From Candidatus Zambryskibacteria bacterium RIFOXYD1_FULL_40_13 (GTDB lineage: Bacteria > Patescibacteriota > Minisyncoccia > Phycocordibacterales > DATDWN01), in contig MHWY01000004.1 of the NCBI GenBank assembly GCA_001824295.1, positions 47,095 through 80,811 of the forward strand: DNA of 33,717 nt, given 5' to 3'. How positions within the stretch are numbered: position 1 is the stretch's first letter; each line of letters begins with the position of its first letter. This document shows positions 14,403 to 20,007 of the stretch, one piece after another. The position numbers were made by a program, and so were the translations under genes. A model generated the notes under the pieces. It was given only the letters and a program-made list of their open reading frames with translations, was not told the DNA's origin and did no database searches.

Positions 14403-15730
14403 TGTTAAAACATAGAATAATATCTATAGTCTTAGTCTTGGTTGTTGTAGGCGTCGGTTTTTTTGTATCTAATACATCCAAGTACCCTTTTAAGTTTGGG
14501 TTGGATTTGAATGGGGGGACAGAACTAACTTATCGTGCCGATATATCAAAAGTCAAGTCTGGAGATGTGGGTGGGGCTATGGCTTCACTTCGAGATGTTA
14601 TAGAGAGAAGAATAAATATATTTGGTGTCTCGGAACCTATTGTTCAGGTAGAAAATCCTGGGCTTGTTGCTGGTTCCGATGATTACAGACTGCTCGTTGG
14701 TCTTCCTGGAATAACAAACATTGAAGAAGCCGTAAAACTTATAGGTAAAACTCCACAACTTGAATTTAAGCTTGTAAGACCAGAAGCCGAAGGGTTGACC
14801 GAAGAAGAACTTAAGACCAAAACTCAAGACGAGATTTTCCTTTCGACTGGACTTGATGGTCAATATCTAGACAGCGCCCAACTACAATTTACAAACAGTG
14901 GTTCTGGTCAGCTATCGGGGGAGCCGATTGTCGCCATTACCTTCAATGACGAAGGTCGGGATTTATTCGCAAAAATTACTAGAGAAAACTTAGGAAAAGT
15001 CTTGGCTATATTTCTAGATGGTGGGGTAATATCAAGCCCCGTAATTCGTGATGAAATAAAAGATGGTAAGGCAGTAATATCTGGTGGGTTTACCCCAGTT
15101 GAGGCAAAAGACCTTGTTAGAGACTTAAACTATGGTGCTTTGCCTGTGCCGGTTGAGCTTATTTCTACACAGAGCATCGGCGCCTCCTTGGGTGAAGACG
15201 CGAAAACCTCTGGCGTTGACGCCGGGCTAATTGGCTTTGCTTTCATAGTTGCTTTTCTTATCTTGTGGTATAGACTACCAGGTATTGTTGCAAGTCTATC
15301 ACTTGTTATTTATATAATCCTTTCTTTGGCAGTTTTCAAATTAATTCCTGTCACATTTACTGCAGCGGGTATTGCAGGGTTTATTTTGTCCATTGGTATG
15401 GCAGTGGATGCAAACGTTTTGATTTTTGAGAGAATGAAAGAAGAACTGAAAAAGGGTAAATCTGTGCATGATTCTCTGCATGAAGGATTTTCAAGGGCTT
15501 GGCTTTCTATTCGTGACTCAAATATTTCTTCAATGATTACTGCTGTTATTTTGTTCTGGCTTGGCACATCAGCCGTGAAGGGTTTTGCGCTTACTTTGGG
15601 TCTTGGTGTTCTTATTTCTTTGTTTACAGCTATTACTGTTTCCAGGACATTTCTATTTGCTATTGCACCCAAAGGAGAATCACACGGCAAGCTGGCGAGA
15701 TTCTTGTTTAGTAATGGCTTTCACATTTAG
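14402..15730 (+). CDS. secD: Protein translocase subunit SecD
   Basis: FGLDLNGGTELTYRAD, RVINI-type RRINIFGVSEPIVQ, and C-terminal GFILSIGMAVDANVLIFERMKEEL. Confidence 0.95.
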   Translation: MLKHRIISIVLVLVVVGVGFFVSNTSKYPFKFGLDLNGGTELTYRADISKVKSGDVGGAMASLRDVIERRINIFGVSEPIVQVENPGLVAGSDDYRLLVGLPGITNIEEAVKLIGKTPQLEFKLVRPEAEGLTEEELKTKTQDEIFLSTGLDGQYLDSAQLQFTNSGSGQLSGEPIVAITFNDEGRDLFAKITRENLGKVLAIFLDGGVISSPVIRDEIKDGKAVISGGFTPVEAKDLVRDLNYGALPVPVELISTQSIGASLGEDAKTSGVDAGLIGFAFIVAFLILWYRLPGIVASLSLVIYIILSLAVFKLIPVTFTAAGIAGFILSIGMAVDANVLIFERMKEELKKGKSVHDSLHEGFSRAWLSIRDSNISSMITAVILFWLGTSAVKGFALTLGLGVLISLFTAITVSRTFLFAIAPKGESHGKLARFLFSNGFHI

Positions 15731-15764
15731 ACTTTATGAACTTTATAACTTTTAACTCACTTAT

Positions 15765-16667
15765 ATGTTTGTAGTAAATTACAGAAAATTATTTTTTACA
15801 CTATCTATCCTTCTAGTTGTTGGTTCTTTTGTTGCAATTTCAGTGTATGGACTGAATTTTGGTATTGATTTCAAGGGCGGGTCTATCTTGGAGGTGAGTT
15901 ACCCTGACAGTCGGCCTGAAGCAGAAAGTATTAAGGTCGGACTAAATAATCTTGATCTTGGTTCTTACATACTAACTCCGTTTGGAGAAAAAAACTTCAT
16001 TTTGCGAGCAAGAGAGATTACCCCTGTTGAAAAAACGGCTATAATTAACACTTTTTCAAGCAATAGTACGGTTCAAATAACTGAGGAAAGATTTAACTCC
16101 ATAGGCCCGGCTGTTGGAACAGAGTTAAAAAACAAAGCGATTTTGGCAATCATTTTAGTTGTGATTTGTATTGTGCTTTTTATTACATTTGCTTTCAGAA
16201 AAGTTTCCCATCCTGTGGCTTCTTGGAAGTATGGTTTAGCAACTATTATTGCTTTAGTGCATGATATTATTATTCCTACTGGCATATTTGTGATTTGGGC
16301 TCATTATAGAGGTGGGGAGATAGATATGCTTTTTATCACTGCTCTCCTTGCGATTTTAGGTTATTCCGTTCACGACACCATAGTTGTTTTCGACCGAGTT
16401 AGAGAGAATTTGCGACTCGGTGGTAATTCTAAAACAAAGGAGTCATTTATTGAAACTGTTGGAACCTCGGTCTCGCAAACCTTCGCAAGGTCAATCAACA
16501 CATCACTGACCATCTTTTTGGCCCTCGTTGCTCTGTATTTCTTTGGCGGAGAAGCTACTCGTAACTTTGCCTTTATTTTGCTTGTGGGTATTATAGCTGG
16601 AACTTATTCATCTATCTTTGTTGCCTCACCACTACTTGTTACTTTTGAAAGGTTTAGGAAGAAATAA
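15765..16667 (+). CDS. secF: Protein translocase subunit SecF
   Basis: GLNFGIDFKGGSILEV and GYSVHDTIVVFDRVRENLR motifs; directly downstream of secD. Confidence 0.95.
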   Translation: MFVVNYRKLFFTLSILLVVGSFVAISVYGLNFGIDFKGGSILEVSYPDSRPEAESIKVGLNNLDLGSYILTPFGEKNFILRAREITPVEKTAIINTFSSNSTVQITEERFNSIGPAVGTELKNKAILAIILVVICIVLFITFAFRKVSHPVASWKYGLATIIALVHDIIIPTGIFVIWAHYRGGEIDMLFITALLAILGYSVHDTIVVFDRVRENLRLGGNSKTKESFIETVGTSVSQTFARSINTSLTIFLALVALYFFGGEATRNFAFILLVGIIAGTYSSIFVASPLLVTFERFRKK

Positions 16668-16718
16668 GTCAAGCCATAAGTGGCCTAGAGACTTGGTGTT
16701 TTTAGGTGGATTAGACAC

Positions 16719-16746
16719 TTGACTTCAATAAAAATATGGCTATACT
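16719..16746 (+). promoter_or_regulatory. Candidate rRNA promoter
   Basis: TTGACT, 16 nt, TATACT upstream of the structured 16S leader. Confidence 0.6.
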
Positions 16747-16752
16747 ACTTAG

Positions 16753-16773
16753 GTGCCTTTTAAAGGCATTTTT
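16753..16773 (+). terminator. Terminator-like hairpin (TGCCTTTTAAAGGCA-TTTTT)
   Basis: Perfect short stem followed by a T run. It lies at or just after the predicted rRNA start, so it could terminate secF transcripts or sit at the leader 5' end. Confidence 0.5.
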
Positions 16774-17076
16774 GTACACAGAAAGTTCGTTGACATCAAA
16801 TTGAATATAGGCCCACCACTTGCAAAGGTAGTGGGTCAGAGAATGTATTTTAAAGTGGTCGAAAAGTATTTCTGTCTAAAGACAAAATACATTTTCGACA
16901 TGATTTTCCGAGTAGGAAAATCTCAAGTTTTCGTCAACCCTAATTCCTGTCAGGGGGTGAGGGACGACAAAATATTCTTTATTAATACTTCTGGATATGT
17001 GAATCTAAAGCAACGATTCACAACATCAATAAACATAATCATATTAAAACAGTGTTCATCTAGTGAAAACAAAATA

Positions 17077-17162
17077 GTCAAAAAGTCCATAAAGTCAAAA
17101 GTCCATAAAGGAAATGCACCCGCATTCACTTTACAAACTTTACAACTTTTAACTTTCGACTT
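17077..17162 (+). repeat. Copy of the same AGTTCATAA-type inverted repeat upstream of 16S
   Basis: AGTCAAAAAGTCCATAAAGTCAAAAGTCCATAAAG - AATGCACCCGCATT - CACTTTACAAACTTTACAACTTTTAACTTTCGACTT. Confidence 0.75.
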
Positions 17163-17168
17163 GAAAAA

Positions 17169-17198
17169 TTATATTTTTCTTTATTTTGTTCCGTTCAC
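17169..17198 (+). other. 5' strand of the 16S precursor processing stem
   Basis: TTATATTTTTCTTTATTTTGTTCCGTTCAC is complementary at 28/30 positions to 19110-19139. Confidence 0.75.
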
Positions 17199-17312
17199 TA
17201 TAAAGTTTTTGATTAAACTTTTTTTAAGAGTTTGATCCTAGCTCAGGATGAACGCTGGCGGCGTGGATAAGGCATGCAAGTCAAACGGGTGCATCTCACA
17301 AAGGTTCGATGC

Positions 17313-17414
17313 AGTTAAAAGTTCATAAAGTTCATAAAGTTCATAAAGTAGATTCAGAGTGCAAATGCATTAAGAGTTCACATTAAAAACTTTATAGACT
17401 TTCAACTTTATAAC
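17313..17414 (+). repeat. Repeat-built hairpin insertion in the 16S V1/helix 6 region
   Basis: agttaaAAGTTCATAAAGTTCATAAAGTTCATAAAGT...TGCAAATGCA...AAACTTTATAGACTTTCAACTTTATAACT, inserted within a GGTGCATCTC/GCGAGGTGCATC stem. Confidence 0.8.
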
Positions 17415-18456
17415 TCGCACCGAGGTTCTGCGAGGTGCATCAGTGGCGAACGAGGTAGTAACACGTGGGTTACATCCCCCAAAGTCAGGAATAACTAATC
17501 GAAAGATTAGCTAATACTTGATAATCTCTTCGGAGTAAAGATTTATCGCTTTGGGAATGGCCTGCGGAGTATCAGCTAGTTGGTAGTGTAATGGACTACC
17601 AAGGCTATGACGCTTAGGGGAGCTGAGAGGCTGACCCCCACCGATGGAACTGAGACACGGTCCATACACCTACGGGTGGCCGCAGTCGAGAATCTTCCGC
17701 AATGGACGAAAGTCTGACGGAGCGACGCCGCGTGATGGATGAAGTCCCTAGGGACGTAAACATCTTTTATGAGGGAGAAAGTTTATTGATAGTACCTCAC
17801 GAATAAGGGGTTGCTAAACTCGTGCCAGCAGCAGCGGTAATACGAGTGCCCCGAGCGTTATCCAGAATTATTGGGCGTAAAGGGTGTGTAGGTGGCAGTG
17901 TTAGTCAAACGTTAAAGCCCGGAGCTTAACTCCGGAAGTGCGTTTGAAACGGCACAGCTAGAGGATGCGAGGGATGAATGGAACTCATGGAGTAGGGGTG
18001 AAATCCGTTGATATCATGGGGAACACCAAAAGCGAAGGCAGTTCATTGGCGCACTCCTGACACTGAAACACGAAAGCGTGGGTAGCGAATGGGATTAGAT
18101 ACCCCAGTAGTCCACGCCCTAAACGATGACAACTAGCTTTTCGGAGTATCGACCCTCTGAGAGGCGAAGCTAACGCGTTAAGTTGTCCGCCTGGGTAGTA
18201 CGACCGCAAGGTTAAAACTCAAAGGAATAGACGGGGACTTGCACAAGCAGAGGATTATGTGGTTTAATTCGATGATAAACGAAAAACCTTACCAAGGTTT
18301 GAAACCTAACTGAATAGAAGCAGAAACGTTTCTAGTCTCACAAGGACAGTTAGGCAGGTGATGCATGGCCGTCGTCAGTTCGTGATTTGAATTGTTCCCT
18401 TAAGTGGGGTAACGAACGCAACCCTCGTTGTCTGTTATACGTATCAGGCGAGACTG

Positions 18457-18606
18457 CCCAGCTTTTTGCTCGGAAGCAAAAAGCCAGTTAAAAGTTCATA
18501 AAGTTATAGAGTTCATAAAGTAAAATGCATTTGCATCTACTTTAAAAACTTTACAAACTTTCAACTTTAAAAACTTACTTTTTGAGCTTGCGCTCAAAAA
18601 GCTGGG
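18457..18606 (+). repeat. Repeat-built hairpin insertion in the 16S V7/helix 39-40 region
   Basis: Outer stem CCCAGCTTTTTG/CAAAAAGCTGGG (12 bp perfect) enclosing AAAGTTCATAAAGTTATAGAGTTCATAAAGTAAAATGCATTTGCATCTACTTTAAAAACTTTACAAACTTTCAACTTT. Confidence 0.8.
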
Positions 18607-19109
18607 AGGAAGGCGAGGATGACGCCAGGTCAGCATGTCCCTTTGATACCTTGGGCTACACACATAATACAATGGCGACCACAACGCGTTGCGACGGGGT
18701 AACCCTGAGCTAATCGTAATAAAAGTCGCCCCAGTTCAGATTGGGGGCTGAAACTCGACCCCATGAAGTTGGATTTGCTAGTAATCGCGGGTCAGCTATA
18801 CCGCGGTGAATACGTTCTCAAGTCTTGTACTCACCGCCCGTCAACTCAAGGGAACCGGGAATACCCGAAGTCTAGCGTATGCTAGCCCACGGTAAATTCG
18901 GTAACAGGGAGTAAGTCGTAACAAGGCACGGCTAGCGGAAGCTGGTCGTGGAATAATTCAATTTGAAATACCTTTCGCTTTGCGAAAGGGAAGTTATATT
19001 CTTCGTAAGAAAAATATAAATGTGTGTCGATATTGTGAATCTCGTACGAGTTCATAATGGACTATGATTTATTGGTCCTTAAATAATCTGACACCCTGGA
19101 AAGACAGGG

Positions 19110-19139
19110 GTGAACGGAACAAAATAAAGAATGATATAA
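19110..19139 (+). other. 3' strand of the 16S precursor processing stem
   Basis: GTGAACGGAACAAAATAAAGAATGATATAA pairs with 17169-17198. Confidence 0.75.
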
Positions 19140-19192
19140 ATAAGTAAAAAGTTCGTATAGTCCATAAAGTTTATAAAGTGGATACGAACATC

Positions 19193-19223
19193 AAAAATAC
19201 CGCTATAAAAGGCGGTATTTTTG
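19193..19223 (+). terminator. Rho-independent terminator of the 16S transcript
   Basis: AAAAATACCGC-tataaaag-GCGGTATTTTT hairpin with a T tract. Confidence 0.8.
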
Positions 19224-19237
19224 TATGTGTATAACAC

Positions 19238-19301
19238 ACATTGACAAAGCATACAAAATGGTGTAATATTAATATGAGATGTTACCTGAGGAGGGTACAT
19301 A
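19238..19301 (+). promoter_or_regulatory. Consensus sigma70 promoter plus canonical Shine-Dalgarno
   Basis: TTGACA, 17 nt, TAATAT, then GAGGAGGG 7 nt upstream of ATG 19302. Confidence 0.7.
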
Positions 19302-19565
19302 ATGGCACATGAAGACTATAGCTTCGCAACATTTTCTCTTGGGATGGGCTTTCTCGTTTTGGGGCTACTTCTCGCGATAGGAATTCTTGCCAAGGACGGG
19401 CGATTTATCGTCACACTCTTGACGATTGTTGCTCTCGCATCTTTGGTGCTCTACGGTATCAAGTGGTATCGAAGGAATCACCGGAAGCCCAATCCGTCGG
19501 TATTCGTGCCGATGAAGGATCGTGACTGGAAGGGCCCAGACGGCATTCAGCGTCGGGGTCTCTGA
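19302..19565 (+). CDS. Small two-TM membrane protein, GC-rich, hypothetical
   Basis: 87 aa, two hydrophobic segments (LGMGFLVLGLLLAIGIL, FIVTLLTIVALASLVLYGI), basic tail, strong SD, flanked by its own promoter and terminator. Confidence 0.7.
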   Translation: MAHEDYSFATFSLGMGFLVLGLLLAIGILAKDGRFIVTLLTIVALASLVLYGIKWYRRNHRKPNPSVFVPMKDRDWKGPDGIQRRGL

Positions 19566-19570
19566 GGGGG

Positions 19571-19623
19571 GGTGGGGGGTGTGTGCGTCGTAGACGCCAT
19601 GCGCCGCACACCTCCCTTTTTCT
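19571..19623 (+). terminator. GC-rich terminator after the small membrane protein gene
   Basis: GGGGGTGTGTGCG.../CGCCGCACACCTCCC stem followed by TTTTT. Confidence 0.65.
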
Positions 19624-19668: not shown

Positions 19669-19905
19669 GCGCGTGTGGCTCAGTTGGTAGAGCACTCGAC
19701 TGCCTCCCTACGGGAGCTGTACACCTTTCGCTTTTTGGTTACAAAATGCTCAAGGTCTTGCGGAGTGATAACATCACTCCTCACTCGTGGGGTTGAGGTC
19801 GGATTAGGGACCCGACCGAAAAACCTTTTGAGATACAGTTGAGTTTTTCGAAATTTTATCCAAAAGGTATACTGCTCCTGTAAGGAGACAGGTTCAAATC
19901 TTGTT
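19669..19905 (+). pseudogene. Interrupted tRNA-Ile-like copy (pseudo-tRNA or intervening-sequence-containing tRNA)
   Basis: GCGCGTGTGGCTCAGTTGGTAGAGCACTCGACTG matches the tRNA-Ile 5' half with one difference. ACTCGTGGGGT and CAGGTTCAAATC then recur in order, separated by ~80 and ~95 nt structured inserts. No CACGCGC acceptor 3' strand. Confidence 0.55.
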
Positions 19906-19934: not shown

Positions 19935-20007
19935 GCGCGTGTAGCTCAGTTGGTAGAGCACTCGACTGATACTCGTGGGGTCCCAGGTTCAAATCCTGGC
20001 ACGCGCA
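19935..20007 (+). tRNA. tRNA-Ile (anticodon GAU)
   Basis: Cloverleaf GCGCGTG/CACGCGC, GCTC/GAGC, CTCGA-CTGATAC-TCGTG (one T-T mismatch), CCAGG-TTCAAAT-CCTGG, discriminator A. CCA not encoded. Confidence 0.88.

Follow-up and report, generated by a model that had tools for sequence, protein, structure and literature searches.

The 16S rRNA of a tiny uncultured bacterium of the Patescibacteria (CPR), kin of the Nomurabacteria, ends without the anti-Shine-Dalgarno (anti-SD) sequence CCUCC, one of the most conserved elements of rRNA and a fixture of textbook accounts of how bacteria initiate translation. The trait is not peculiar to this host. Probably the anti-SD has been lost throughout its order, the Shine-Dalgarno (SD) signal has been purged from native mRNAs, start codons are chosen without any rRNA-mRNA pairing, and about a third of the native genes are leaderless. 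The class in question is the one commonly named Paceibacteria or Parcubacteria. The window, that is the whole stretch of 33,717 nucleotides analysed here (G000:C4:47095-80811), comes from a 10-contig draft assembly of 728,731 bases (729 kb) which is 95.7% complete.

Read directly, the host gene carries GTCGTAACAAGG at 18915-18926, an intact helix 45, TGGA at 18949-18952 and then ATAATTCAATT at 18953-18963, where the E. coli counterpart is TCACCTCCTTA. The gapless alignment to E. coli presented in an earlier note on this DNA proves correct base for base, helix 45 included, and the missing CCUCC that it had pointed out is borne out both by this reading and by the genomes of relatives. Mature 16S would be expected to end near ...GUGGAAUAAUUCAA, without CCUCC. 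A search of the window found no CCTCC on the + strand from 15183 to 19611. The nearest downstream occurrence, at 19611, lies about 650 nt past the 16S gene in an unrelated terminator-like hairpin, and the motif-free stretch, which the note had put at about 100 nt, is thus really some 650 nt long. With 1330 bits, the gene scores within the range of the full matches obtained for relatives with the same model (934–1386 bits).

Table 1. Location of the features discussed (window positions unless a locus is given).
Feature	Location	Strand	Basis and remarks
Complete 16S rRNA gene	17220..18963	+	Rfam RF00177, model 1-1533, 1330 bits; sole copy found in the assembly
Helix 45, CTAGC-GGAA-GCTGG, intact	18932..18945	+	Direct reading
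3′ tail TGGAATAATTCAATT replacing TGGATCACCTCCTTA, without CCUCC	18949..18963	+	Direct reading; tail type common to the order
Possible short tail/trailer hairpin TTCA-ATT-TGAA	18957..18967	+	Inverted repeat seen in the majority of order members; statistically weak
GC-rich, SD-led host ORFs	Window 19302-19565; L096:10249-10656; L097:14117-15073; L097:18150-18506		
GC-rich, SD-led host ORFs	L098:17748-18863; L100:4364-5047; L100:14817-15242; L105:3521-5327; L106:18437-18883		
G451 loci	L295, L327-L335		16S in L325
G516 loci	L298, L336-L346		16S in L323; 16S and SD-led genes on one contig

The same kind of tail is found wherever the order could be read. A genome of the same genus (G011) has a 16S ending in GGAATAATTCAATTTGAAACC, and all 25 of the 16S ends compared, from the host and 24 others ranging from the same genus to different families, lack CCTCC, most of the 24 carrying GGANNATTTCAANNTTGAA or a near variant. 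Six further order genomes from a class-wide sample also lack it, which brings the count to 31 of 31 readable genomes. An exact-pattern scan with one genome per GTDB species placed the order-type tail on at least 119 species contigs, with Ca. Nomurabacteria, Zambryskibacteria, Taylorbacteria, Adlerbacteria, Yonathbacteria and Campbellbacteria among the matches listed; other classes of the phylum, among the matches listed for them, mostly retain CCTCC, as GGATCACCTCC.

Since independent assemblies of relatives share CCTCC-less tails, assembly error or chance is excluded as the source of the host's own, and the worry over an assembly join raised in the note can be dismissed. A pseudogene is rejected as well, given the full-length match and the lack of an intact copy beside it; no further 16S copy, whether bearing CCTCC or decayed, was found in the assembly. 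The evidence supports a functional host gene that has lost its anti-SD, neither mis-assembled nor a pseudogene. That the window holds a join, a sequencing error or a decayed 16S while an intact CCUCC-bearing gene was left unassembled is therefore a very remote prospect. The genome is admittedly a ten-contig draft, rRNA operons are often missing from metagenome assemblies, and in one otherwise anti-SD-less order genome (G245) a short contig end (G245:C6:260-315) carries a CCTCC-type 16S 3′-end. This fragment is probably contamination, however, coming as it does from 1 genome of 31 and a short contig end. The explanation would also have to accommodate a tail type shared throughout the order, a host gene of full length and top score, and native mRNAs whose lack of SD would be strange for a cell with CCUCC ribosomes.

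Could the missing motif instead be restored in the RNA? An intron might split the 16S terminus, with a CCUCC exon lying downstream; CPR rRNAs do carry introns (PMC12641178), and the host 16S holds two insertions. Yet some 650 nt downstream are devoid of CCTCC and the next occurrences fall in the terminator-like hairpin and a tRNA fragment, only 4 of 25 order loci have CCTCC within 300 nt, at unrelated distances, and native genes lack SD, all of which makes a terminal intron most improbable.

The locus has other peculiarities. The two insertions span 17312-17432 (helix 6 region) and 18490-18600 (helix 39 tip, by eye), and both contain AGTTCATAAAGT-type repeats, which also occur between genes at 17084, 19159, 15731 and 25671 and, in the rest of the genome as sampled, at about 11 more sites; two relatives from the same genus that were checked (L027, L006) do not have them in their 16S loci. 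The 530 loop, at about 17822-17840, reads GTGCCAGCAGCAGCGGTAA, a C to A change from the usual GCCGCGG that is common to most of the order and mismatches the standard 515F primer region. The 23S gene (L002, G000:C4:39674-43947), which shares the strand of the 16S gene, precedes it by about 20 kb instead of following it, and its extent of about 4.3 kb suggests insertions. Finally, 34 nt at 19669-19702 repeat the 5′ half of tRNA-Ile(GAT) almost perfectly, 266 nt upstream of their counterpart (19935-19968) in the intact gene: a tRNA fragment, an intron-interrupted copy or an integration scar.

Beyond the order, 122 readable 16S ends from the class divide into 41 with CCTCC, 16 with CTCC, 11 with a weaker remnant and 54 with nothing recognisable. 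About two thirds (81 of 122) thus depart from CCTCC, 27 of them keeping a remnant only, and just 20 of the 61 families sampled are uniformly CCTCC. Mixed families exist, one of them (f217) holding CCTCC, CTCC and none, and the intermediates include CTCC-only tails within a trailer hairpin. In a 16S tree of 72 taxa, built quickly with the tail excluded, midpoint-rooted and with some long branches, all 25 order members fall inside a clade made up entirely of genomes without the anti-SD (ASD−), several other ASD− lineages branch outside those that keep it (ASD+), and at least four state changes are needed; with a tree of this kind the number of losses is approximate. The earlier statement that loss is reported only in scattered lineages was right about the loss itself and understated its reach, which takes in a whole order, at least 119 species contigs strong, and about half of the class. 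The comparison with relatives' 16S ends that the note had proposed shows a trait common to them, and CCUCC would have disappeared in an ancestor of the whole order.

Does the new tail do the work of the old one? Leaders were examined over about 390 kb of the host genome and 20–40 kb stretches of most other genomes, with ORF starts set mechanically at the first ATG. SD-like 5-mers at the right distance precede about 1% of host ORFs with GC below 0.45 (n=321), against about 5% in the upstream background, and in native ORFs of 18 order genomes the value is 2.5%, below a background of 3.9%. The test itself works, since in the same genomes ORFs of outlying GC content score 61% against 6%. Nor is there excess pairing of the host's native leaders with either tail: the energies are −2.07 kcal/mol for its own tail (−2.31 for shuffled leaders) and −2.58 kcal/mol for a CCUCC tail (−2.55 shuffled). 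A re-coded tail, that is a new anti-SD pairing with a matching new SD in the leaders, is what the order-wide conservation of a TTTCAA/TTCAA core might suggest, for such conservation asks for a function. But native leaders pair with the host tail slightly less well than shuffled ones and the only strong position-locked signal is a −10 box, so that the tail is very unlikely to be a re-coded anti-SD.

Elsewhere in the class the picture is graded. ASD+ genomes use SD sparingly (8%, background 4%), and ASD− genomes of other orders show it at 11%. Two of the latter, G451 and G516, keep SD on 15–18% of genes over a background of 2%, at the canonical position of about −9 to −14, and a single 16S was found in each; loss of the anti-SD is therefore not always paired with loss of SD. 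A full system of SD without anti-SD was considered for these two genomes and rejected: the 62% and 40% of a first sample dropped to 15% and 18% with more sequence, which indicates residual SD. Such a pattern would be expected of a transitional state, and we infer an order of events in which SD use shrinks first, the anti-SD is then lost and residual SDs decay last.

What is enriched in native genes of the order is a promoter element close to the start codon. TANNNT starting 12 to 14 nucleotides before the ATG is present in 32.8% of native ORFs, against 8.8% expected from other positions, and it is as strong in the GC-rich genome G245 (median ORF GC 0.60; 43% against 4%) as in AT-rich ones. Hexamers of the −10 type peak at exactly −12, with 62 of 688 ORFs as opposed to about 2–15 at most other positions; in-frame stop codons are ruled out as the source of this peak because other multiples of three have none. 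A TTGACA-like −35 hexamer at a spacing of 16–18 nt accompanies it in 28% of cases (11% for permuted motifs), and in the host no other strong position-locked leader signal was found. Leaderless genes of bacteria are recognised in silico by a TA-like element some 12 nt ahead of the start (PMC3160421), and it is such a position-locked TANNNT, above background, that is seen here. In the ASD+ part of the class the signature is weaker (15%, over a background of 8%), and it is intermediate in ASD− genomes of other orders (22%). The host's order exceeds the ASD+ genomes in the excess of this signature (Mann-Whitney p = 0.0003, the genomes not being phylogenetically independent), and as the ASD+ members show it too, leaderless enrichment is not strictly tied to anti-SD loss.

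For roughly one native gene in three, then, the −10 box sits so near the ATG that transcription should begin on the start codon or immediately ahead of it. The other native genes of the order, about two thirds, lack this signature, and these would probably have short, A/U-rich, unstructured leaders or lie behind an upstream gene. Ribosomes of the order would thus choose start codons without rRNA-mRNA pairing, on mRNAs purged of SD, through initiator tRNA and the initiation factors. How this organism starts translation had been called an open question; it is partly answered by native genes that have neither SD nor pairing to the new tail and do have a strong leaderless promoter signature, and so is not wholly open.

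The initiation machinery adds a few elements. Of the two checks suggested in the note, IF3 is present in the host genome, and bS21 (PF01165) was not found there at E 0.01, although a protein of this small size makes the test a weak one. Across the class sample bS21 was counted in 31 of 36 ASD+ genomes, 18 of 29 ASD− genomes of other orders and 10 of 15 of the host's order, a weak trend based on marginal scores. The host has a bS1-like protein, as do all 80 class genomes tested, and this protein is non-discriminating. The KH domain of Era recognises GAUCA and CCUCC (PMC10582724), and Era exceeded its cut-off in none of 80 class genomes, ASD+ and ASD− alike, in agreement with published work on Paceibacteria (PMC12641178). 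Loss of Era is consequently rejected as a correlate of anti-SD loss, and its absence from both groups makes it only a permissive background: it plausibly removes one constraint on the tail, yet separates no ASD groups. Loss of Era, which binds GAUCACCUCC, together with an earlier decay of SD use, may have relaxed selection on the tail. YchF, a reported promoter of leaderless translation, is retained in CPR (PMC12641178).

Why then is the order's tail conserved at all? The hairpin that it may form with the first trailer bases (Table 1) is thermodynamically weak, several members lack it, and in 30 of 2000 trials column shuffles attain a mean stem length as great as the one observed. The case is clearer in class members that keep a partial remnant: their tails pair with the first trailer bases through compensating changes (TCCTTTTAAGGA, ATCCTAGTAAGGAT, ATTTCTTTTTAGGAAT), and as a set they fold far better than shuffles (mean fold percentile 0.127). 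Within the order, a processing hairpin as the reason for tail conservation is plausible, though not proven. It could form part of a different account, in which anti-SD loss is neutral decay, the tail is kept as a tail/trailer processing hairpin like the older CTCC...GGAG one, and leaderless initiation is an older and independent trait of the class. The clear hairpins of remnant-bearing members speak for this account, as do ASD+ members that are already SD-poor with some leaderless signal, while the weakness and patchiness of the order's own hairpin speak against it. We regard it as a serious possibility, though not the favoured one, and it complements more than contradicts an order-wide loss with initiation free of rRNA-mRNA pairing.

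Several known systems resemble this one in part. In SD-independent initiation of the Flavobacterium type, the anti-SD is kept and sequestered by bS21 and its neighbours; native genes lack SD there as in the host, but the host, unlike these Bacteroidota, has lost the very sequence of the anti-SD, and a search for bS21, in what is a weak test, found none. Leaderless-rich Actinobacteria and Deinococcus-Thermus keep CCUCC alongside SD-led genes, whereas the host order has dropped both. What the order shares with the TA-led leaderless genes of these phyla is the position-locked TANNNT about 12 nt upstream (PMC3160421). CCUCC loss in a few CPR bacteria, Campbellbacteria included, is already published; to this known kind the present data add the scale of a whole order and the leaderless signature.

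After Lim et al. in 2012, a PLoS One paper of 2018 listed antiSD-less taxids. The listing comprises 128 taxids, mostly from other phyla, such as Chryseobacterium, Blattabacterium, Mycoplasma, Carsonella and Hodgkinia (PMC6107228). As in the host, their anti-SD is gone, SD is not enriched and no variant SD matches the variant tail; the lineages are unrelated to it, and the main text mentions neither Parcubacteria nor “candidate” phyla. Closer still, PMC10783764 describes 112 organisms in which CCUCC is absent and SD scarce, including single Campbellbacteria, Wolfebacteria and Peribacter genomes and two SR1. Like the host, these CPR cases lack CCUCC in 16S, are poor in SD and share the change with close relatives; a genome titled Ca. 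Campbellbacteria carries the same tail type as the window. The features that mark category iv of that paper are all seen in the host: a sole 16S without CCUCC, SD-scarce native leaders and relatives with the same variant. Where its passages on these bacteria list single CPR genomes, the present data cover a whole order, class-wide gradations, a leaderless signature and SD-led foreign-looking genes. No report of the order-wide extent, the class gradient, the leaderless signature or the contrast with SD-led foreign-looking genes was found in the literature covered, which took in few subscription journals or preprints.

These foreign-looking genes deserve a closer description. GC-rich ORFs (0.51–0.60, for a genome at 0.40), mostly ORFans with strong SD leaders, are scattered in the host genome, and the pattern recurs in other order genomes, where almost no GC-outlier ORF bears the leaderless signature. 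One such protein has no counterpart in 60 relatives, its own genus included. It matches phage family phrog_5931, and a 38% relative of it lies on a viral contig of GC 0.60 whose genes are SD-led; tblastn against annotated phages returned nothing. For a second protein, no relative was found in viral contigs. The genes are likely to be recent foreign arrivals. That they are made for another cell's ribosomes was considered and is not supported, the phage-family match and the viral-contig relative fitting a foreign origin.

It is tempting to go one step further and suppose that a whole order, having abandoned SD-anti-SD pairing to initiate on leaderless or unstructured mRNAs, would by the same loss filter the translation of foreign SD-led genes, a doubtful extension. 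If it held, the host ribosome would translate poorly any phage or plasmid genes that arrive with an SD leader, which 61% of GC-outlier ORFs have as against 2.5% of native ORFs, and anti-SD loss would act as a barrier against foreign genes. The class also offers a natural series, from intact CCUCC through partial erosion and loss with residual SD to loss with SD purged. Such a series lends itself to asking what the anti-SD is for, whether it or SD goes first, and what takes over from them. On the practical side, gene prediction that counts on SD may put starts in the wrong place in genomes of this order, and SD-based expression constructs may fail in its bacteria.
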